NCBI GenBank assembly: GCA_024639645.1
Contig: JAHEIB010000004.1
Coordinates: forward strand, 1-42,763
Reading direction: 5' to 3'
DNA: 42,763 nt
Origin: Deltaproteobacteria bacterium
Lineage (GTDB): Bacteria; Desulfobacterota; Desulfobacteria; Desulfobacterales; B30-G6
The position numbers were made by a program, and so were the translations under genes. Positions 11,292 through 22,827 of the stretch are shown here, piece after piece. How positions within the stretch are numbered: the first letter of the stretch is position 1; every line of letters starts with the position of its first letter. Below the pieces are notes generated by a model. It had not been told where the DNA came from. It saw only the letters and a list, made by a program, of their open reading frames with translations, and ran no database searches.

Positions 11292-12803
11292 TCAAAAAGG
11301 CGCTATCACCGATTGAAGCAAGACCAAAACCGGTTGAGGAAACAATCCCAATACAATGGCGAGCATCGCCAAAACCAATAGCGGTATGCTCATAGTCAAT
11401 GGCGGGTCTTTGGGAATCCGGTCTGCAATTTCCTTTTTGAGAGGTCCAAAAAAGATCCGGAAACCCGTTAGAAAAGTATAAACCAGCGTTAAAATGGTTG
11501 AAAGAACTGCGACGATAACGAGAACAAGGCCCATGGGATGTCCTTGCACGCTTTGGAAAGCGCCCGTAAAAAAAAGCCATTTACCCACAAATCCGCTGGT
11601 GGGTGGCAGTGCGGAAAGAATCAGTGCCGAGGCAAACCAGAGCACTGCTGTCAAGGGCATCTTATGCCAAAGCCCCCCCATTTTTTGAAGATCTCTTGTT
11701 TCCATGGTAAAAACCAGAATGCCCGCGGTGGAGAACAGAATAGCCTTGCCCAGTATATGGCTTAAAAAATAGAAGATGCCTCCTTCAATCCCCACGATTG
11801 TCATGGCCCCCACACCAAATACCGAGTAAGATATCTGGCTGATGGTGGAGCATGCACAAAAACGTTTGGCGTCAGACTGTGCTAATGTCAATAAAGCACC
11901 ATAGACCATGGTAATCAGCGCCAGGGTCATGATGGGCATTGAAAATACCAGCATGTCGTTTTGTAAAGGTAAAATCAGCACCCTGACGATCACATAAACA
12001 GCAATGTTGGCATAAACCGCCAGCAGTCCGGCAATGCAGGTTGGATGCTCGGCATGAACCCACGGCATCCAGACATGCAGGGGAACCAGAGCCAGTTTGG
12101 TTGCCATACCCGTTAAGATCAGCAGTGCGATCCAAAATGTCTTTGGATTTCCGGAAAGTCGGGTCAGTTCCGAAATTTCAAAACTTCCGATCAGGGTGAA
12201 GCATAGCAGAATTCCGATTAGAAACAGCATGGCACCGGCAACACCCCAATAGAGACACATCAGGGCTACCTTGTAACGGGAAATATAGTCTGAGTACCCG
12301 AATTGCGCCATGATGAAATAGAGAGGAACGATGGTCAGAAGCTCCAGGAAAAAATAGATACTGATGAGGTTGGTACTGAAAGCAACCCCCATAAAACCGG
12401 CGGGGAAAAACAGATAAAGAAAGAAAAATCTTTTAAAGTACAGGTTCCGGGTATCCGCATCGGCCTCAGGATAGATGATGTCGATTCTATGCTCGACATA
12501 GTGCAATGAATAACTGGCAAGAGCGATGCAGATGATGTTGATTATAAGCCCCACGGGAAGGCTCAAACCATCGGCCAGAAGGTTCAAACTCACATCCGGT
12601 CCAATAGCATGCTGCTCGAGGATATGGCCATCGGCATACACGCGAAACCCTGCTATGATCATGAGCACCGTGGTATAAACCAGCGAGGCAATGCTAATCC
12701 AACCGAATAGAAAGTTACTGCGAGATCGGACCAGAAGGACAATCATCGCTGCGACCAACGGAATTAATACGATTTGTAACAACAGATAAGGCATTACAAA
12801 CAC
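11292..12803 (-). CDS. proton-conducting antiporter-like membrane subunit (NuoM/MrpD-like), copy 4
   Basis: ~500 aa, many TMs; GMATKLALVPLHVWMPWVHAEHPTCIAGLLA, FCACSTISQISYSVFGVG; start GTG 12803 or ATG 12794. Confidence 0.9.
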   Translation of the reverse strand: MFVMPYLLLQIVLIPLVAAMIVLLVRSRSNFLFGWISIASLVYTTVLMIIAGFRVYADGHILEQHAIGPDVSLNLLADGLSLPVGLIINIICIALASYSLHYVEHRIDIIYPEADADTRNLYFKRFFFLYLFFPAGFMGVAFSTNLISIYFFLELLTIVPLYFIMAQFGYSDYISRYKVALMCLYWGVAGAMLFLIGILLCFTLIGSFEISELTRLSGNPKTFWIALLILTGMATKLALVPLHVWMPWVHAEHPTCIAGLLAVYANIAVYVIVRVLILPLQNDMLVFSMPIMTLALITMVYGALLTLAQSDAKRFCACSTISQISYSVFGVGAMTIVGIEGGIFYFLSHILGKAILFSTAGILVFTMETRDLQKMGGLWHKMPLTAVLWFASALILSALPPTSGFVGKWLFFTGAFQSVQGHPMGLVLVIVAVLSTILTLVYTFLTGFRIFFGPLKKEIADRIPKDPPLTMSIPLLVLAMLAIVLGLFPQPVLVLLQSVIAPF

Positions 12804-12810
12804 CCATCCA

Positions 12811-14580
12811 TTAACGGTACACCATCAAGATGGCTATAAATAACAGAATAAATGGCACTAAAATATAGACCACATTCCATGACAGTTCCGATTTCTCAGT
12901 CTTCAGTGGTCGAACAAGCTGCGCAATCCGGTCCGGAAATTCCACCAGAAGGGTGTGGAAAAACCAATCCATGCGCTTTTCGATTTCCAAGGACCGGAAC
13001 GGCGCCGACCTGAATCCCGTGACGACAGACCCGACCCAGCTAGCCACGACCCTGGCAATGGCCTGTAATGGCCGGTGACAGAAGCGCACAAACACCCGTC
13101 CTGGCATTCGGACAAACCAGTCGGTATCAAGGTTCACGGCCCGCTGTTCCGCGGGATAAAACCCGGAGAGGATCAGCATGGTAAATGCGAGGGCGCCGAA
13201 CATCAGAAGCTGTAACATTCCCACCACATGAAAGGCCGTATAAGGAACGAAATCGACTGGATAAGGCAAAATACTATACAGCGGGGCGGGGTAAACGCCC
13301 AAAAAAATACAGATGAAAGCCGCCATTCCCATGGCAATGCGCATATTAAAGGGCGGCTCCTTACTCCGGATGCCCGAGTCATGGCCGAAAAAGATAAAAA
13401 ATGGAACTTTGATACCCGCATGATGAAATACGCCGGCAGAGGCGAAAAGCAGCATAAACCAGACAATGACATGGTGCGATTCAGCCACGGCTGCGACGGT
13501 CAGCGATTTGCTTACAAAACCGCTAAACAGGGGAAAGGCTGAAATGGAAGCGGCCCCGACCATGCAGCACACCGCCGTGAAGGGCATGGTCTTGTACAAT
13601 CCACCCAGATCGGTACCCCTGATCTTTCCGGTCATGTAAAGGACCGCTCCGGTGGACATAAACAACAAGGCTTTATATATGATGTGGCAAAAGGCATGGG
13701 CGACCACGCCGTTAATAGCCAATTGACTGCCGATCCCAATTCCGCAAACCATAAACCCCACCTGGTTAATCAGGCTGTAGGCCAGGACCCGGCGCATATC
13801 ATTGACGATGACCGCATAAAATATCGGGAAACAGGTCATAAACGCCCCTGCCCATAGAAGAATGTCATTTCCCGGAAATGTCCGAGCCAAAATGTAGACG
13901 GCGCTTTTGGTCGTGAGGGCGCTCATGAAAACCGCCCCCGTAACGGTCGCCCTGGGATATGCATCCGGCAGCCAGGAATGGAATGGGAAAACAGCGGCAT
14001 TCAGACAAAACCCGATAAAGATCATCAGGGAGGCCGTATCGGTCAGGCCAATAAAATTGAACTCAGTGGTTCCACGAGTAATAACAAATAGGATAATGCC
14101 CGCCAGTAGACAAAGCCCGCCAAAAAAATGCCACATGAAATATCGGAAAGCCGCCTTACGTGAGTCTTCTGTCCTACGCGCTAGTATTAGAACCACAGAT
14201 GCCAGAGCCATCAGTTCCCAGAAAATGTACAGGGAGAATAGGTCACCCGCAAAGGTGACACCCAGCGCCCCACCGGCATAACTCAAGGCTGCCACATGTT
14301 GAACATCGTCCTTGACATGCAGGGAATAAATCGTCCCGATAAATGAGATCAAAACGAATACATATCCAAAAGCCAGACTGAGGCGGTCTACCCGGCACAA
14401 AATCAATGAATAATCAAGAAATGCTGTGGTCCATGATTGTCCATCGGGGAGATACAATAAATCCAGACCGGCAAGCACTGGTAAGGTCAACAGGTATAAC
14501 TGCTTCGCACGTCCCCTGAAGAGAGGTACCAATACGGCACCGACCAGAAAGATCATCGCAGGTGGCAACGCGCTAGTCAT
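12811..14580 (-). CDS. proton-conducting antiporter-like membrane subunit (Mrp/NuoL-type), copy 3
   Basis: 589 aa; LNAAVFPFHSWLPDAYPRATVTGAVFMSALTTKSAVYILAR, RVLAYSLINQVGFMVCGIG. Confidence 0.88.
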   Translation of the reverse strand: MTSALPPAMIFLVGAVLVPLFRGRAKQLYLLTLPVLAGLDLLYLPDGQSWTTAFLDYSLILCRVDRLSLAFGYVFVLISFIGTIYSLHVKDDVQHVAALSYAGGALGVTFAGDLFSLYIFWELMALASVVLILARRTEDSRKAAFRYFMWHFFGGLCLLAGIILFVITRGTTEFNFIGLTDTASLMIFIGFCLNAAVFPFHSWLPDAYPRATVTGAVFMSALTTKSAVYILARTFPGNDILLWAGAFMTCFPIFYAVIVNDMRRVLAYSLINQVGFMVCGIGIGSQLAINGVVAHAFCHIIYKALLFMSTGAVLYMTGKIRGTDLGGLYKTMPFTAVCCMVGAASISAFPLFSGFVSKSLTVAAVAESHHVIVWFMLLFASAGVFHHAGIKVPFFIFFGHDSGIRSKEPPFNMRIAMGMAAFICIFLGVYPAPLYSILPYPVDFVPYTAFHVVGMLQLLMFGALAFTMLILSGFYPAEQRAVNLDTDWFVRMPGRVFVRFCHRPLQAIARVVASWVGSVVTGFRSAPFRSLEIEKRMDWFFHTLLVEFPDRIAQLVRPLKTEKSELSWNVVYILVPFILLFIAILMVYR

Positions 14581-14821
14581 AGTAATCTTCCCTTCGTTTC
14601 ACCAGCAGTCTCAGGAGTTTGGCCACAAAAATTAGACTCACACAGGCAATGAAACCGTATACCGCATAGAAACAGGGTGCCTTCTCCCAAGAAAAGTGGA
14701 CATGCTTGTGTAAAAAGAAATCAATGATCAATAAAACCACCAGTGAGACATAGAAATACTTCCTCACCTTTAATCGGTTTCGTTCGGAATCAAGAAAGGT
14801 CAGTTCTTTTTGGGGTTTCAT
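14573..14821 (-). CDS. small membrane protein (82 aa), two predicted TMs, in Mrp operon
   Basis: Overlaps the downstream antiporter gene start by 8 nt; hydrophobic segments YFYVSLVVLLIIDFFL and FYAVYGFIACVSLIFVAKLL. Confidence 0.7.
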   Translation of the reverse strand: MKPQKELTFLDSERNRLKVRKYFYVSLVVLLIIDFFLHKHVHFSWEKAPCFYAVYGFIACVSLIFVAKLLRLLVKRREDYYD

Positions 14822-14992: not shown

Positions 14993-15190
14993 TCAGTTCA
15001 GGTTAAAGATGAAAACCACCGAGAGATAGAAAATACCCAAGGCAACAAGCAGGTAAAAAATCCGCTTGAATTTCGGCGAACTCTCGTGGACCAGTTCCAT
15101 CTTCTCCTCGAACCCGGTCAGCCAGGCGGTAGTTTCACCATCCGCCTGCCGGTATACCGTTTCATCCCCGTCTACAACGATTTTGCCCAT
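14993..15190 (-). CDS. small single-TM protein (~65 aa), in Mrp operon
   Basis: MGKIVVDGDETVYRQADGETTAWLTGFEEKMELVHESSPKFKRIFYLLVALGIFYLSVVFIFNLN; the track ORF begins at 15211. Confidence 0.65.
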   Translation of the reverse strand: MGKIVVDGDETVYRQADGETTAWLTGFEEKMELVHESSPKFKRIFYLLVALGIFYLSVVFIFNLN

Positions 15191-15230
15191 TTTATTTCCT
15201 TTTATCCACACGGTTCATCATGAAAAGAAC

Positions 15231-16742
15231 TTATGGGAACAACCCTCTGATCGCCAAATTCGCCAGATCGATAATATAAAACATTCCCGGGAAAAAGCAG
15301 AACACGATGGAGAATATCGCCGTGATGGTCAGCGGAATCACCATAAACAGATATAAGGGGCGCCCTCTTTCACTGTTGCTGGCAGAATCCCCATACGATC
15401 CCTCGGTAGCCGCCGGTTCATCAAAATAAGCCGTTTTTACGATCGGAAAAAAATAAATCACATCCAGGAGGGAGCTGACCAGGATGACAACCAGAAAAAC
15501 CAGATATCCCGTCTGTATCGTTCCCAGACACAAATACCATTTGCTGATAAAGCCGGCTACCGGCGGAGCGCCGGCCATGCCCACAGCACCAACGGTAAAA
15601 GCAGCCATAGTGATCGGCATCCGACGTCCAATGCCGGCCATCTGGCTGATCTGCTTTTTGCCGCTGATAACCATCACCGCCCCGGCGCATAAAAAGAGGG
15701 TGATTTTCATGAACCCATGAAACGGGATGTGAATCATGGCCCCTTTCACCCCGTACGAACTGAGCAGGGCCGCCCCAAAAAGAATGTATGAGAGCTGACT
15801 GATTGTCGAAAAAGCGAGACGCCGTTTGAGATTATCCTCCCCTATAGCGAAGAAAGACCCCACGAGCATGGTAACGGAAGCCACCGTGCCGAGCATGAGA
15901 CCGAGCCCGAGGGCCTGCATCAGATCAACACCGAAAACATAACAGACGATCCGTACGAACCCGAATACCCCGGCCTTGACTACCGCAACCGCATGCAGCA
16001 AAGAGCTGACGGGTGTCGGGGCCACCATGGCTGCCGGCAACCAGGAATGAAACGGCATCCAGGCTGCCTTCATTGAACCCAGGGCAAACAGAACGAACAA
16101 CAGTATCAAGACACCGGCGGATGCCGTATCTTTAGAAAGGATCCCGCCATCGGTAAAAGCGGTTGTACCCGTGAGGGCGTATGTCATCACGACCGCGGCA
16201 AACAAAAACCATCCGGACACAAGCAAGTATGATAAATATTTCCGGGTGGCGGCAAAGGCCTCCTGATCTTCGTGGTGGGCAACCAGCCAGTAGGTAGAAA
16301 GCGTCAGGGCTTCGTAAAAGATGTAAAAGGTTACCAGATTGGCGGACAGCGCGATGCTAACAGCGGAAAAGATTGCTATTGCAAACATAAAATAATAACG
16401 GGTCTGAGCGTGTTCGTGCAACGCGCGCATATAGCCGATGGAATAAACCGAAACCAGGATCCATAAAAAAGAAGATGTAATCGCAAATATAAGGCCGAAG
16501 GCATCCACCCGATATCCGACTTCCAGACCGGGGGCAATGGTGATGATATGGCTGACAATCACCTTACCGTCCAGGATGATGGGCGCCATGGAGATAATCA
16601 CGGCAAACTGGGCCACGCCCGCAGCAAGCGTGCAGCCTTCTCTGATATTGGGTCGGTTGCGAAAGAGGAAAACAAGCAAAGCACACCCTAAAGGGAAAGC
16701 AAGGGCTAACAATGGCTGGAAGGAGTGGATCACAGGGCTCAT
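15231..16742 (-). CDS. proton-conducting antiporter-like membrane subunit (MrpD/NuoL-type), copy 2
   Basis: True start MSPVIHSFQPLLALAFPLGCALLVF at 16742 (ATGA overlap with the upstream gene); KAAWMPFHSWLPAAMVAPTPVSSLLHAVAVVKAGVFGFVR, LAFSTISQLSYILFGAALLSS. Confidence 0.9.
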   Translation of the reverse strand: MSPVIHSFQPLLALAFPLGCALLVFLFRNRPNIREGCTLAAGVAQFAVIISMAPIILDGKVIVSHIITIAPGLEVGYRVDAFGLIFAITSSFLWILVSVYSIGYMRALHEHAQTRYYFMFAIAIFSAVSIALSANLVTFYIFYEALTLSTYWLVAHHEDQEAFAATRKYLSYLLVSGWFLFAAVVMTYALTGTTAFTDGGILSKDTASAGVLILLFVLFALGSMKAAWMPFHSWLPAAMVAPTPVSSLLHAVAVVKAGVFGFVRIVCYVFGVDLMQALGLGLMLGTVASVTMLVGSFFAIGEDNLKRRLAFSTISQLSYILFGAALLSSYGVKGAMIHIPFHGFMKITLFLCAGAVMVISGKKQISQMAGIGRRMPITMAAFTVGAVGMAGAPPVAGFISKWYLCLGTIQTGYLVFLVVILVSSLLDVIYFFPIVKTAYFDEPAATEGSYGDSASNSERGRPLYLFMVIPLTITAIFSIVFCFFPGMFYIIDLANLAIRGLFP

Positions 16743-18253
16743 GGCGTCCCTCCAAATCCGAATCCGGTATTGATCGCATAAAGCAGCGGATGGAAGGTTC
16801 CGGATATCCACACGACACCCAAAACAAACGACAGAATCCCCAGCAATAATCCGGGTATCAACATACTTGCCGGAATTTCGTTGACCCCGGGTTTGCCGGG
16901 AAAGGTGTTTTCTTTTTCCGGGCGGATATACATGATCTCGATGACTCTCCAAAAGTAGATGATCATCAGCAACGTGCTGATAAAGATCACGACCACAAAC
17001 ACGTACCCGCGGGCTTCCAGCGCTGCCAAAATGAGATACCATTTGGTAATAAACCCGACCCCTGGCGGCATGCCGATCATCGCCAGTGCCGCCAGGATCA
17101 TGGCCAGACTTGTATAGGGCATTCTCCGGCCAAGACCGGTAAATTGACGAATATCCCACATATTGTAGCGGTAAATGAAACCACAAGCAGCCATGAACAT
17201 GCAGCCCTTGATCACCGCGTGGTTCACTATATGCATGACGGCCGGCGTCAATCCCAGTGTGGATGATGGGGCCAGGCCGATGGCCAGCACGATATATCCC
17301 ACATTGGCGATACTCGAGTAAGCCAGCATTCGTTTTAGATTGGTTTGTTTGATGGCAAAAATAGAGCCCATGATCATAGCCAGGGCGGCCACCCAGCAGA
17401 TGAAACCAAATACAGGCAGGATTTCCTTGATGAAATTCAGCGTAAATACGGAAAAAATGATACGGATCAGGGCATAGACAAATGTCTTGGCCACGGCAGT
17501 GGAGATAAGCACACTGACTGCCGAAGGCGCAAACGTATACGCATCCGGCTGCCAGCTGTGCAGGGGAAACAGCGCAATTTTGATGGCGAACCCAATGAAA
17601 ATAAAAACGAAAGCTGTCTGAACCACGCGTGAACCGTACATGCCAGGCAGAAGCAGACGTAAATCCTCCATGTTCAGTGAACCGGTAGCGATGTACAAAT
17701 AACCGATTCCTATCAGATAAAACGAAGCTCCGACGGTGCCGATAATGAGATAGCGCAGGCTGGCTAAGGGAGCCTTTGACCCCCCGATGGCAACCAGTGC
17801 ATAACTGGTAAGTGAAGCGACCTCGAGAAGGACAAACAGATTGAACATATCAGCGGTAATAATAATCCCCAGCAACCCGGTCATTAAAAGCATGAAAAGG
17901 CTCCAGAACAGACATATTTTCTCAGGCAGTTCCTTTTCGATGCTCTTTTTGGCATACATTGCCGCCAGCCATCCGACCATGGAGACCAGGCATAGCATGA
18001 ACGCGGTCAGATGATCCACGCGATATTCGATACCCCAAGGGGGTGCCCATCCGCCCAGACGATATTGAATCGTTCCTTGCCGGATGACGGTATCAAGAAT
18101 AGCAATAGCCGATACCACGCACACCGACACCCCCCCCATGGCCATAGGGAAAGCCAAATGTTTGTTCCGCCAACCGAAAAAAAAGACAAAGAAAGAGGCG
18201 AAAAGAGGAGCGACAACAATGATGGCAGGTAACTGTTGAACCATGTGTTCCAA
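16739..18253 (-). CDS. proton-conducting antiporter-like membrane subunit (MrpD-type), copy 1
   Basis: 504 aa; IALFPLHSWQPDAYTFAPSAVSVLISTAVAKTFVYALIR, LKRMLAYSSIANVGYIVLAIGL. Confidence 0.92.
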   Translation of the reverse strand: MEHMVQQLPAIIVVAPLFASFFVFFFGWRNKHLAFPMAMGGVSVCVVSAIAILDTVIRQGTIQYRLGGWAPPWGIEYRVDHLTAFMLCLVSMVGWLAAMYAKKSIEKELPEKICLFWSLFMLLMTGLLGIIITADMFNLFVLLEVASLTSYALVAIGGSKAPLASLRYLIIGTVGASFYLIGIGYLYIATGSLNMEDLRLLLPGMYGSRVVQTAFVFIFIGFAIKIALFPLHSWQPDAYTFAPSAVSVLISTAVAKTFVYALIRIIFSVFTLNFIKEILPVFGFICWVAALAMIMGSIFAIKQTNLKRMLAYSSIANVGYIVLAIGLAPSSTLGLTPAVMHIVNHAVIKGCMFMAACGFIYRYNMWDIRQFTGLGRRMPYTSLAMILAALAMIGMPPGVGFITKWYLILAALEARGYVFVVVIFISTLLMIIYFWRVIEIMYIRPEKENTFPGKPGVNEIPASMLIPGLLLGILSFVLGVVWISGTFHPLLYAINTGFGFGGTP

Positions 18254-18254
18254 C

Positions 18255-18737
18255 CTAAAATAAGGCGCCGAGATCCGGATGATCCTTGATGGCTTTTATA
18301 AACTGCTCCGTGCGCACGTCATAACGCTTCTTGACGACATGCAACAACCGTTGACTCATGATGTATCCCAAGTGGTGGTTCTGCTCGAAAAGTGTTTTTA
18401 ATTTTTTTGCTCTAAAGGAAAGCAACTGGGTTGGTTCTGCACAAATGGCATCCGTACTGTAGTTTTCCTCGCTGCCATCCAACATGGCTGACCATCCGAT
18501 GGAATAGCCCCGTTTTATCGAGCTTAAGGAAATGGTTATCCCGGAACCTATTCGCTGTTCCAGCAACACCATCCCCTGAAGAATAGAATAGTATCGATCG
18601 GCTTTGTCTCCCTGGTGGAAGACGTACTCTTTCTCATCATACTGTAGCAATTCGGTTATCGGAATCAGTTCGTCAAGCATGTCATCGGTTAGATAGGTCA
18701 GCATGACGATTTGTTTTAGATTTTCTCTGGTTATCAT
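18255..18737 (-). CDS. cyclic nucleotide-binding-fold protein without DNA-binding domain
   Basis: KEYVFHQGDKADRYYSILQGMVLLEQRIGSGITISLSSIKRGYSIGWSAMLDGSEENYSTDAICAEPTQLLSF; 160 aa, ends without an HTH. Confidence 0.85.
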   Translation of the reverse strand: MITRENLKQIVMLTYLTDDMLDELIPITELLQYDEKEYVFHQGDKADRYYSILQGMVLLEQRIGSGITISLSSIKRGYSIGWSAMLDGSEENYSTDAICAEPTQLLSFRAKKLKTLFEQNHHLGYIMSQRLLHVVKKRYDVRTEQFIKAIKDHPDLGALF

Positions 18738-18768
18738 TGGTACTCCTTTGTACCCCGCGTTCAGAGTT

Positions 18769-19164
18769 TCAGGTTTCCTGGATCCTCTTAAGAATCTCCT
18801 CTTCTTCCAGGGTGTGATACTGCTGATGAATTCTGATCACCAGCGCCAATGCCACGCCCAGGGTAGCCACGGCTACGACAATGGCGGTCAACATCAGCAC
18901 ATGTGGCAGCGGATTGATATAGTGGCTTGCCGATACCGCTGCATGGACGGTATCATTTCCATGCTCGATGATGGGAATAGTGGCTTTTTCCTTGGCACCA
19001 ACGGAAATAAAAAAAAGAATAACGGCTGTTTGAAGAATGTTCAGGCCGATAATCTTTTTGACCAGATTTTTCTTGACCATGATACCGTAAAGACCAATCA
19101 TCATCAGGATAATATATAACCAGTAGTTAGCCTTTGAAATCAGAATATTCAGTAGCGCATCCAT
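18769..19164 (-). CDS. mrpC: Na+/H+ antiporter subunit C (MrpC/NuoK-like)
   Basis: LYIILMMIGLYGIMVKKNLVKKIIGLNILQTAVILFFIS...PLPHVLMLTAIVVAVATLGVALALVIRI. Confidence 0.92.
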   Translation of the reverse strand: MDALLNILISKANYWLYIILMMIGLYGIMVKKNLVKKIIGLNILQTAVILFFISVGAKEKATIPIIEHGNDTVHAAVSASHYINPLPHVLMLTAIVVAVATLGVALALVIRIHQQYHTLEEEEILKRIQET

Positions 19165-19166
19165 GG

Positions 19167-19997
19167 TTACAACCCCTCGTCGTGTCTTCCGGCCGAGGCC
19201 AGGTTGTAGTACAATGTCACGATAACGGCCATGACGGCAATGCCAACACCTATTTCGACGATCAGTATCCCATGGGAGCGGGCTGTGACCGGATCAACAC
19301 CCAGAAGACCGGCCAGCGCACTGTAATCTAAGTAGTTCAACCCAAATAACATGCATAATGCGCCTGTACCCGCATAGATGAAGACGCCCAACGAACTCAA
19401 CATCACGGCTGAACGTTCGCTCATCCGGCGAATGGCTGACCGCAGGTTGAACGCAATGGCATAGATGATCATGGCTGCTCCCAGGATGACGCCACCCTGA
19501 AAACCGCCTCCCGGACTGTGGTGGCCGTGGGCAATGACGTACAATGCGAATATCTGGATAAACGGCACGATCAGTCGGCAGGTTGTCTTAACGATAAGAT
19601 CATGGGGAACCCAATGTGAATCGATCCGTTCGAAGACCACCGAGTCCTCTGGAAAGCGACCCTTTTTATCGATCTTGAGGGTGATACCGGTGGGGATGTG
19701 ACGGTAGAGCCTACTCCCGGATTCCGTTTCCTTGAACGTTCGCAATAGAACGATGCAGGCAATACCAGCCGCAAAGATAACGATGGTTTCAAACATGGTA
19801 TCGTATCCGCGATAATCGGCCAATACAGCGGTGACAAGATTAGGTACAGAGGTGTCTTCCATAGCTTTTTCGATATAGTATGGTGATAAATGGCTGCTGG
19901 CAGGCGACGCCGGGTCTCCCCACGGTGGAAACGCTAGCGATCCGTAGAACAGCACGCTTCCTAGAATGACAACCAGAATCAGTCCAACTATTCTCAA
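19167..19997 (-). CDS. mrpB: MrpB-domain subunit with N-terminal MbhE-like extension
   Basis: C-terminal FALYVIAHGHHSPGGGFQGGVILGAAMIIYAIAF (MnhB motif); N-terminal ADYRGYDTMFETIVIFAAGIACIVLL (MbhE/MrpA C-terminal-like). Confidence 0.9.
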   Translation of the reverse strand: MRIVGLILVVILGSVLFYGSLAFPPWGDPASPASSHLSPYYIEKAMEDTSVPNLVTAVLADYRGYDTMFETIVIFAAGIACIVLLRTFKETESGSRLYRHIPTGITLKIDKKGRFPEDSVVFERIDSHWVPHDLIVKTTCRLIVPFIQIFALYVIAHGHHSPGGGFQGGVILGAAMIIYAIAFNLRSAIRRMSERSAVMLSSLGVFIYAGTGALCMLFGLNYLDYSALAGLLGVDPVTARSHGILIVEIGVGIAVMAVIVTLYYNLASAGRHDEGL

Positions 19998-20272
19998 TCT
20001 TCTGTCCTCCGCGATGTTCGAAACACGGCCGCTACGAACATGACCGTGCTGACGCCGGCCCCTACCGATGCTTCGGTAAAAGCCACATCAACCGCTCCCA
20101 TAATGGCCCATAGCAGGCACATCATGAAGCTGTAGGCCCCGAACAGAATGGCAGCCCCCAGTAGATCCTTAACACCCAAGGCACCGACGGCCAGGATGAT
20201 GACAATGATCAGGATAGTAATTTCAATCTGCCAGATCATGTCTGGTCCTCTCCTGAAGATGGTTTCGTCCAA
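19994..20272 (-). CDS. DUF4040-domain subunit (MbhD / MrpA C-terminal-like)
   Basis: IVIILAVGALGVKDLLGAAILFGAYSFMMCLLWAIMGAVDVAFTEASVGAGVSTVMFVAAV. Confidence 0.88.
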   Translation of the reverse strand: MDETIFRRGPDMIWQIEITILIIVIILAVGALGVKDLLGAAILFGAYSFMMCLLWAIMGAVDVAFTEASVGAGVSTVMFVAAVFRTSRRTED

Positions 20273-20562
20273 GGCTTCAATCCGGCCCTGACACCGGCGT
20301 CGACAATGGCGTGGGTTGCCGTTGGACTTGTGATAAAGACAAACACAATAATCAAACCGATTTTCAAAGCCGTTAAAAACAAGCCCTGCACAAAAGCAAT
20401 ATACAGCGCAAGGGCGCCGACGGTGGTCACCAATCCGAAAGTGTCAAGTTTACCGGCCGGATGCAGGCGGGAATAAAAATCCGGAAATCGGAGAATACCC
20501 AGGGTACCACCAGTAAAAAAAATCAGACCGCATATTAAAAGAAGTGTAATAAAGATATTCAT
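20236..20562 (-). CDS. mrpG: Na+/H+ antiporter subunit G
   Basis: FFTGGTLGILRFPDFYSRLHPAGKLDTFGLVTTVGALALY...FITSPTATHAI. Confidence 0.93.
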   Translation of the reverse strand: MNIFITLLLICGLIFFTGGTLGILRFPDFYSRLHPAGKLDTFGLVTTVGALALYIAFVQGLFLTALKIGLIIVFVFITSPTATHAIVDAGVRAGLKPWTKPSSGEDQT

Positions 20563-20579: not shown

Positions 20580-20864
20580 TCAGTCCGTGTTTTCATCATA
20601 CAAACCTTTTCGTTTCTGAAAATATCGCGAAGCTGCCAGTACGGTGATAAAATTTAACATGGCATAGGCCAGAGCTATATCAACGAACATCTCGACTCGA
20701 TGATACATCAGCCCGATCAGAATCAACAGCGAGGTGGTTTTGCTGCCGATGGCGTTGGTACCGATTAAACGGTCAAGTATCGTAGGCCCGGCTACCGCCC
20801 TGTATAGCGACAGAAACATCAGTAGGCACAGATACAAACCAGCATATAAGAAAACATGTTCCAT
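20580..20864 (-). CDS. mrpF: Na+/H+ antiporter subunit F
   Basis: LYRAVAGPTILDRLIGTNAIGSKTTSLLILIGLMYHRVEMFVDIALAYAMLNFI. Confidence 0.93.
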   Translation of the reverse strand: MEHVFLYAGLYLCLLMFLSLYRAVAGPTILDRLIGTNAIGSKTTSLLILIGLMYHRVEMFVDIALAYAMLNFITVLAASRYFQKRKGLYDENTD

Positions 20865-21388
20865 TATTCTTTAAATATGCGCTCGATTTGGCGTTCCATT
20901 TCACCGGGTAGCGGGTCACCCGAGGCTACATCGATACAATGAACCGTAAAGCGTCCCATTGCGGAAACATTTACGGTTATAGTTCCAGGAGTCAGCGTGA
21001 TAGAATTGGCAAAGGTTGTTCGTGCGATATCGCTTTCCAGATGACTGTTGAACTCGATGATATGCGGATCGATTAACGCCATCATACGCGGATGAAAGGA
21101 CAAACGGAGTACGTGCAGGTTGGCCAGCAAAATTTGATAGAGTAACCAGGGAACATACAACGCAAATCTAACCCAGCAGGCCAAAAAATCAGTTTTCAAT
21201 CCGGTGGGAAACAGCAGGTCACTGGAGAAAAAGGTGACCAGCAGGCAGGAAACGACACCCAAGGAGAGATGAAACAGATCAAATTTACCCGAAAAGATCA
21301 GCCAGAAACCGATCATGATAACAAATGTAATGATAAAGGGTAATGTAGCTGTCCGTTTTTCAGAGTCGATTTGTGATTGATTCCGCAT
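20864..21388 (-). CDS. mrpE: Na+/H+ antiporter subunit E
   Basis: FANSITLTPGTITVNVSAMGRFTVHCIDVASGDPLPGEMERQIERIF. Confidence 0.93.
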   Translation of the reverse strand: MRNQSQIDSEKRTATLPFIITFVIMIGFWLIFSGKFDLFHLSLGVVSCLLVTFFSSDLLFPTGLKTDFLACWVRFALYVPWLLYQILLANLHVLRLSFHPRMMALIDPHIIEFNSHLESDIARTTFANSITLTPGTITVNVSAMGRFTVHCIDVASGDPLPGEMERQIERIFKE

Positions 21389-21579: not shown

Positions 21580-22248
21580 TTAACCCCTAACCATTTGATA
21601 ACTGGCCGATTTATATCCCTTCACCTTTCGGATGTGAAATGCAAGGATCCGGCTTTCATACTTGTCGATATAATTTTTAAGCTTCTTTTTGCCTTTTCGA
21701 AACCGTGCACCCTGAAGATTCAAGATCAGGCTGCCTACGTCGTTGACCCTTCCTTCGCAGAGTAGACGCGGACCATCACCGATTAACACTTCCCATTCCC
21801 CGGCAACCAAGATACCCAAATCTTCAAGCATCGGATAGAACTCTTCCATGACATACCGGGCATACTCGTCGTAGTCTTGTTTGCTTTCGGTAGTGACGTT
21901 CCACATCTGATTAAATTTAACAGTGTCTTCACGAATATCGGTGGAATAGGCGTCCTTCTTTCCAGTTGTAACCAGAACCTTGGTCTTGTAATTGGTGATA
22001 TGGTGTTGCAGTTCCGACATCAGCTTTCGATATTTATCACTCCTGAGCGCCTCTTCGAGAAGATCGAGGTCATTGCTGACTGTTTCGAGAATGAAATCAC
22101 TGTAAGCTCCCACCATCACTGACCACGCCGCCACAACATGCATGTTCAATCGATTCACGCCGGGGATAAACTTATTTATGACAAATTTTTCGTAATCATC
22201 TCTTTTGCGTGGATTGACCGTCCAGTAGTGATCAAATTTAACCGGCAT
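21580..22248 (-). CDS. tandem-duplicated dimeric alpha/beta-barrel-like protein, function unknown
   Basis: 222 aa with two ~90-aa halves: FDHYWTVNPRKRDDYEKFV...WSVMVGAYSDFILET...KTKVL and FNQMWNVTTESKQDYDEYA...WEVLIGDGPRLLCEG...ESRIL. Confidence 0.6.
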   Translation of the reverse strand: MPVKFDHYWTVNPRKRDDYEKFVINKFIPGVNRLNMHVVAAWSVMVGAYSDFILETVSNDLDLLEEALRSDKYRKLMSELQHHITNYKTKVLVTTGKKDAYSTDIREDTVKFNQMWNVTTESKQDYDEYARYVMEEFYPMLEDLGILVAGEWEVLIGDGPRLLCEGRVNDVGSLILNLQGARFRKGKKKLKNYIDKYESRILAFHIRKVKGYKSASYQMVRG

Positions 22249-22323: not shown

Positions 22324-22827
22324 CTACCAGCCAAACATCAAATCCTCACCCATGTTTCTGGCGACATGATCTTGAAACTGGTGGAACCGAAACCCCACCA
22401 CCTGAATCATATAGGACATAAAGAGATAGCCCATCTGGAAATCCTGACTGAACAGCTGTAAAAGATCCGATTTAAGCACGCGAACGATATTGCAGGTATC
22501 TGTGACGCAGTAAGCAGAGAGTCTCATTTTATACGGTGGCACAAAACACGACCATCCCAAGACTTTGGCCTCAGGCACTTTGTCTGCTACTTCAATGCTG
22601 TTAACGGTCATATCAGGAGATGTGATTCGTCTATCCGGCAATTCAAAACGAAGATCCACGTTGCCGTCCCTGACAATCCAGAGATGCAGGGCGTCATCAT
22701 TCTGGGTAAACAGCTTATCCCCCCTCTGAAACTCGATTTCTTCACAGTTGGCCTGAAGCTTTCTTAAATGATCCTCATTCATACTTTGGAAAGGCTTTAA
22801 CTGCTGCAAGTCTTTGATTTGTATCAT
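22324..22827 (-). CDS. cyclic nucleotide-binding-fold protein without DNA-binding domain
   Basis: DLQQLKPFQSMNEDHLRKLQANCEEIEFQRGDKLFTQNDDALHLWIVRDGNVDLRF...VLGWSCFVPPYKMRLSAYCVTDTCNIVRVLKSDLLQLF. Confidence 0.82.
   Translation of the reverse strand: MIQIKDLQQLKPFQSMNEDHLRKLQANCEEIEFQRGDKLFTQNDDALHLWIVRDGNVDLRFELPDRRITSPDMTVNSIEVADKVPEAKVLGWSCFVPPYKMRLSAYCVTDTCNIVRVLKSDLLQLFSQDFQMGYLFMSYMIQVVGFRFHQFQDHVARNMGEDLMFGW

Follow-up and report, generated by a model that had tools for sequence, protein, structure and literature searches.

A predicted CNB-fold protein encoded within one type of Mrp antiporter operon across Desulfobacterota

Mrp (CPA3) antiporters are close relatives of the membrane arm of complex I. 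Mrp complexes have been described with six or seven hydrophobic subunits (PMC5703873), and neither "regulator" nor "Desulf" occurs in the text of that review. The operon considered here lies in a window of 42,763 nucleotides (the whole stretch of DNA that was analysed) from a draft genome, the relatives of which are Desulfobacterales-type sulfate reducers. As in described Mrp operons, B, C, D and E subunits are present, all four recognised by family models, but the type found in the window adds a soluble CNB gene, a fused MbhE–MnhB gene and three to four large antiporter-like subunits. A literature search, outside which many subscription papers lay, returned no description linking Mrp with such a CNB protein.

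Domains of this kind have been reported as fused parts of other Na+/H+ transporters. SOS1, a plant Na+/H+ antiporter, carries a CNB-like domain in which the canonical Arg is replaced by Tyr, and which was judged unable to bind cyclic nucleotides (PMC10372031). The likeness to the present case is a CNB-like domain without cyclic-nucleotide contacts associated with a Na+/H+ antiporter (PMC10372031); the SOS1 domain is, however, fused to an antiporter of an unrelated family, whereas here the protein is separate and the antiporter is the multi-subunit Mrp. For the sperm Na+/H+ exchanger SLC9C1, the CNBD has been reported to control exchange (PMC6052114), but this domain is again fused, retains the key residues and is cAMP-sensitive. 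A CNB partner of Mrp would parallel these fused domains in plants and sperm.

The best match of the window protein in both sequence and fold was 3mdp, the structure of Gmet_1532 from Geobacter metallireducens, which is likewise a single CNB domain, has no known function and carries FG-x-S-S in place of FGE (sequence search E = 5.7e-7; Foldseek E = 1.1e-10, TM 0.74/0.88). Identity is 23%, however, and the alignment to the 142-residue 3mdp chain stops before the RTxQF...HPD tail described below. Proteins of the CRP/FNR type (E. coli CRP and GlxR) share the CNB fold and a long C-terminal helix, but the window protein is without the HTH and has lost the Glu and Arg of the phosphate-binding cassette.

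The CNB gene, its predicted fold and its cassette

The CNB gene (18255–18737, minus strand) encodes a single-domain protein of 160 amino acids, identified as an open reading frame with a PF00027 match, an AlphaFold2 model and a PDB match. It belongs to a minus-strand gene row, in which spacing is mostly small or negative. In order of reading, the row consists of a second CNB-fold gene (22324–22827), a gene at 21580–22248, mrpE (20864–21388; PF01899), mrpF (20580–20864), mrpG (20236–20562), a gene for an MbhD-like small subunit corresponding to the C-terminal part of MrpA (19994–20272), the fused MbhE–MnhB gene (19167–19997; PF04039 and PF20501, with the subunit B model NF009162 over cut-off) and mrpC, which is NuoK-like (18769–19164; PF00420, with the subunit C model NF005624 over cut-off). 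The labels mrpF, mrpG and MbhD-like were given by position, from open reading frames and synteny. After the CNB gene, the row continues with a MrpD-type antiporter subunit (16739–18253; PF00361, with NF009305 at E = 9e-129, below its cut-off), a second large antiporter-like subunit (15231–16742), two small open reading frames, and a third (12811–14580; subunit D model NF009310 over cut-off) and fourth (11292–12803) large subunit. For the last three large subunits the names NDH2, NDH3 and NDH4 were given in this analysis; NDH2 and NDH4 were found by a curated-model search, and the start of NDH2, read from the sequence, places its ATG in a 4-nt overlap with the MrpD-type stop codon.

The open reading frame positions confirmed an earlier reading, made from the sequence alone, that the CNB gene is flanked by mrpC and the antiporter genes, although the 2 nt given there for the distance to the next gene has to be corrected: the MrpD-type start follows the CNB stop after 1 nt if a TTG is used, or after 10 nt if an in-frame ATG is used. 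On the other side, the gap to mrpC is 31 nt and contains a Shine–Dalgarno-like AAAGGAG (18743–18749, minus strand) ahead of the CNB ATG, so that the protein has its own open reading frame and its own ribosome-binding site and is not fused to an antiporter polypeptide. Predicted promoters and terminators internal to the operon near CNB showed no excess over shuffled sequence, and searches for plasmid and phage-family matches returned none. The open reading frame is more than chance, because it is conserved across dozens of genera.

For the encoded protein, Pfam cNMP_binding (PF00027) matched residues 32–120 with E = 3e-14 and 53.2 bits against a cut-off of 27.5, and no other Pfam domain, hence no HTH, was detected over its 160 residues. 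The AlphaFold2 model, built with 21 relatives (pLDDT 90.1, pTM 0.80), shows a CNB beta-roll that leads into a long helix (residues 121–151) and a short tail, again with no HTH; its PDB matches were 3mdp, then GlxR, CRP and the CNB domains of PKG. A CNB fold is thus predicted with high confidence, and the 160-residue protein does not have the C-terminal HTH of a CRP/FNR transcription factor. Both the fold and the missing HTH had been proposed in the sequence-only reading.

That reading had also placed a GWS stretch where the usual phosphate-binding cassette should be, without the Glu and Arg contacts, and both observations were borne out. The sequence GYSIGWSAMLDGSEENYSTDAICAE is present in the protein, and profile alignments delimit a degenerate cassette at residues 77–99 (GYSIGWSAMLDGSEENYSTDAIC; 18441–18509, minus strand), where W82 aligns to the conserved Glu and no Arg aligns to the cassette Arg. 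Among 66 family members, the Glu column holds Trp in 62 and Glu in none, while the Arg column holds Arg in about 3; the canonical pair of Glu and Arg was therefore not found in the family. Residue 93 is Tyr, His or Phe in 63 members, and the profile alignment places residue 94 (Thr or Ser) on the cassette Arg. The two positions correspond to E72 (mature numbering) and R82 of CRP; the reference in the 66-member alignment was an E. coli CRP sequence entered by hand, and the same columns were seen against PKG chains.

The GWS motif is not the peculiarity it had been taken for. It was considered as a hallmark of the Mrp-linked members and rejected, since it also occurs in the second CNB protein of the row (LGWSCFVPP) and in CNB proteins away from Mrp (L115, L119 and L120), and 3mdp has FGVSS at this place. 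The degenerate cassette is common to a broader set of CNB proteins, among them the Geobacter protein of solved structure, so the canonical cassette disappeared earlier than, or independently of, the association with Mrp.

What sets the family apart from other CNB proteins lies further along the chain. The end of the C-terminal helix and the tail (residues 138–156, R...RTEQF...HPDL; 18270–18326, minus strand) are strongly conserved in the family alignment, with R138 in 64/64 members, R142 in 63/64, T143 in 61/64, Q145 in 64/64, H153 in 55/63 and P154 in 58/63, and the distinguishing residues are R142, T143, Q145, F146, H153 and P154. This stretch, which ends and follows the predicted helix, is largely absent from CNB relatives away from Mrp. 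Judged by the alignment, the R-T-x-Q-F...H-P-[DE] tail is a signature of the antiporter-linked family.

Linkage to one Mrp operon type

For analysis of gene neighbourhoods, homologues of 130 bits or more were counted as strong, giving 67 in 194 genomes of the order. Among homologues from 58 relatives, nearly every strong one mapped to the same operon. In total, 61 of the 67 lay within the same Mrp operon type: 53 on the same contig and strand as a fused MbhE–MnhB gene and downstream of it, and a further 8 on short contigs with Mrp subunits still adjacent. Four were not beside Mrp genes (G116, G062, G165 and G050), and G067 and G099 were left out of the neighbourhood inspection. Distances downstream of the fused MnhB fell into two ranges, 0.46–0.74 kb (position A, between mrpC and mrpD, as in the window) or 3.4–6.5 kb, mostly 5.4–6.3 kb (position B, after NDH3).

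Viewed from the antiporter side, a CNB gene was found within 10 kb of 54/73 fused MnhB genes (a tally that includes one weaker homologue, G094), as opposed to 0/47 stand-alone MnhB genes and 0/8 MrpA-fused MnhB genes, or 0/55 together (Fisher p = 3e-20, to be taken as a guide only, the genomes being related). This difference rules out a chance neighbour. Several of the fused-MnhB operons seemingly lacking CNB are explained by contig breaks, and the rest of those inspected are other operon types. Elsewhere in the phylum, outside this order, 15 same-strand matches were found at 5.4–6.2 kb downstream of MnhB, 14 of which mapped in Mrp operons. A scan of 11.3 million genome contigs, for which the tighter profile subset A2 was used because profile A1 was too variable, returned 37 loci, nearly all in Mrp operons; reach beyond the phylum was covered by one pattern scan, and contigs of metagenome-assembled genomes break operons. 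Linkage of CNB to one Mrp operon type is near-obligate across the phylum. The sequence-only reading, which had described an insertion in one operon, was right to place the gene inside an Mrp operon, but the same-operon homologues in the contig scan and in other orders rule out a single-genome insertion; the gene is part of one Mrp operon type throughout the phylum.

Presence in Mrp operons was not only conserved but lineage-true. Positions A and B were separated by exactly one change on the NDH2 tree (support 100/100) and on the MrpD tree (99/89), from which it follows that CNB travelled with the operon lineage. In one genome (G043), the two operon types occur together and a separate CNB gene accompanies each, the A operon being apparently split over two contigs. 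The order in which A and B arose is not firm, because the deep forks of the CNB tree are weakly supported.

The few copies away from Mrp genes (4/67 strong homologues) indicate that CNB can exist apart from Mrp, and a small set of loci joins it to other cation transporters. In L140 (1353–3205), CNB is followed after 2 nt by nhaA (identified by PF06965), and the same CNB-to-nhaA order, here beside Mrp genes, was found in L030 (5180–7041) and L057 (4437–6337), with gaps of 2 and 38 nt, respectively; in the order as a whole, four nhaA genes have a CNB gene no more than about 1.1 kb away. In L043 (8734–10361), a CNB gene outside Mrp lies directly downstream, on the same strand, of a K+-channel-like gene with Ion_trans_2, TrkA_N and TrkA_C domains. 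The copies in G116 and G062 had no transporter partner in the neighbourhood. Though few, the NhaA and K+-channel cases point to cation transport and not to Mrp structure alone. Broader CNB relatives adjoin redox and regulatory genes.

Candidate role and alternatives

Because CNB stays with antiporter genes so consistently, the protein is probably a helper or regulator of the antiporter that has gone unrecognised. Sharing an operon speaks for joint expression and not for physical contact, and CNB is not required for antiport as such, because only one Mrp operon type carries it. The reading that we consider somewhat favoured is that the protein assists or regulates cation/H+ antiport, acting post-translationally and without canonical cyclic-nucleotide binding. 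Of the earlier proposal of an antiporter regulator or scaffold, the part that ties the protein to the antiporter and not to DNA is well supported by the genomic linkage and the missing HTH.

Under the favoured reading, CNB would work in trans as an accessory or regulator dedicated to the cation/proton antiporter: a soluble CNB-fold protein, produced together with the Desulfobacterota type of Mrp and probably docked to it, that would tune antiporter activity or assembly after translation. It may form a CRP-like dimer via the long C-terminal helix, with the conserved R-T-x-Q-F...H-P-[DE] tail touching the membrane subunits. The cassette with W82 and Y93 would not bind cAMP in the canonical manner and could be either self-occupied or fitted to another ligand. 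A soluble partner of this kind, retained across Desulfobacterota, would give sulfate reducers a further means of controlling sodium/proton energetics; as a small soluble protein, it is also directly amenable to ligand and contact tests. More tentatively, stand-alone CNB proteins may serve several unrelated cation transporters (Mrp, NhaA and K+ channels) as interchangeable regulatory subunits that respond to something other than a canonical cyclic nucleotide, a broader proposal that we hold to be possible though doubtful; if true, no earlier case of a soluble regulatory subunit in a Mrp antiporter is known to us.

The alternative that survives best is that CNB serves purely in structure or assembly, as a subunit or scaffold, and senses nothing. 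Linkage that is near-obligate and true to lineage is what a stoichiometric subunit typically shows, and both the strong conservation of the C-terminal tail and the degenerate pocket agree with it. However, lone CNB genes occur by nhaA or a K+ channel, neither of which needs a Mrp scaffold, and Mrp complexes elsewhere assemble without CNB (PMC5703873); a purely structural role is possible but less likely.

The links to three unrelated transporter families, together with the broader GxS-type CNB relatives beside redox operons, could also be read as a sign that CNB regulates something else, for example as a small-molecule sensor in ion/pH homeostasis signalling, and is merely co-expressed with antiporters. 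Against this stands the lineage-true position in one operon type, with none at the 55 other MnhB operons, and we regard it as unlikely.

Quite unlikely, too, is that CNB has retained binding of a cyclic nucleotide, be it cAMP, cGMP or another, in a non-canonical manner and gates the antiporter as the SLC9C1 CNBD does, only as a separate protein. The high-confidence CNB model is close to cAMP-bound GlxR and CRP, and cAMP acting on the SLC9C1 CNBD can gate Na+/H+ exchange (PMC6052114). The key cassette positions, however, hold Glu in 0/66 and Arg in about 3/66 family members, the single substitution R1053Q abolished the cAMP effect in SLC9C1 (PMC6052114), and the degenerate cassette is common to relatives away from Mrp. 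A degraded CRP/FNR transcription factor minus its HTH, which would agree with CRP-type regulators being the closest curated NCBIfam models, is very improbable and largely refuted by conservation, single-domain members in which a conserved tail replaces the HTH being found in many genera.

Other genes beside the operons

Several further features of these loci were recorded. Two family members without Mrp neighbours (L121:9509–10033 and L082:918–1400) have other surroundings: one is near ATP synthase genes, in a genome that is a single long contig and has a partial Mrp cluster at another place, and the other comes before a gene for aldehyde ferredoxin oxidoreductase. The two small minus-strand open reading frames that separate large antiporter-like genes of the window encode 72 (14993–15211) and 82 amino acids (14573–14821), and neither has an NCBIfam match; the 82-residue frame recurs in most syntenic operons and the 72-residue frame in some.

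The second CNB-fold gene (22324–22827, minus strand; LGWSCFVPPYK) heads the same gene row, and relatives of it were found by Mrp operons in two other genomes (L022/L068 and L127), although this family occurs mostly elsewhere. The gene that follows it (21580–22248, minus strand) had no match over cut-off in Pfam and none in NCBIfam or PHROGs, and is conserved next to Mrp operons of the position-A kind, in some cases as two copies. Its AlphaFold2 model (pLDDT 88) resembles tandem dimeric alpha/beta-barrel proteins, the fold matches being putative monooxygenases and coproheme decarboxylase/chlorite dismutase.
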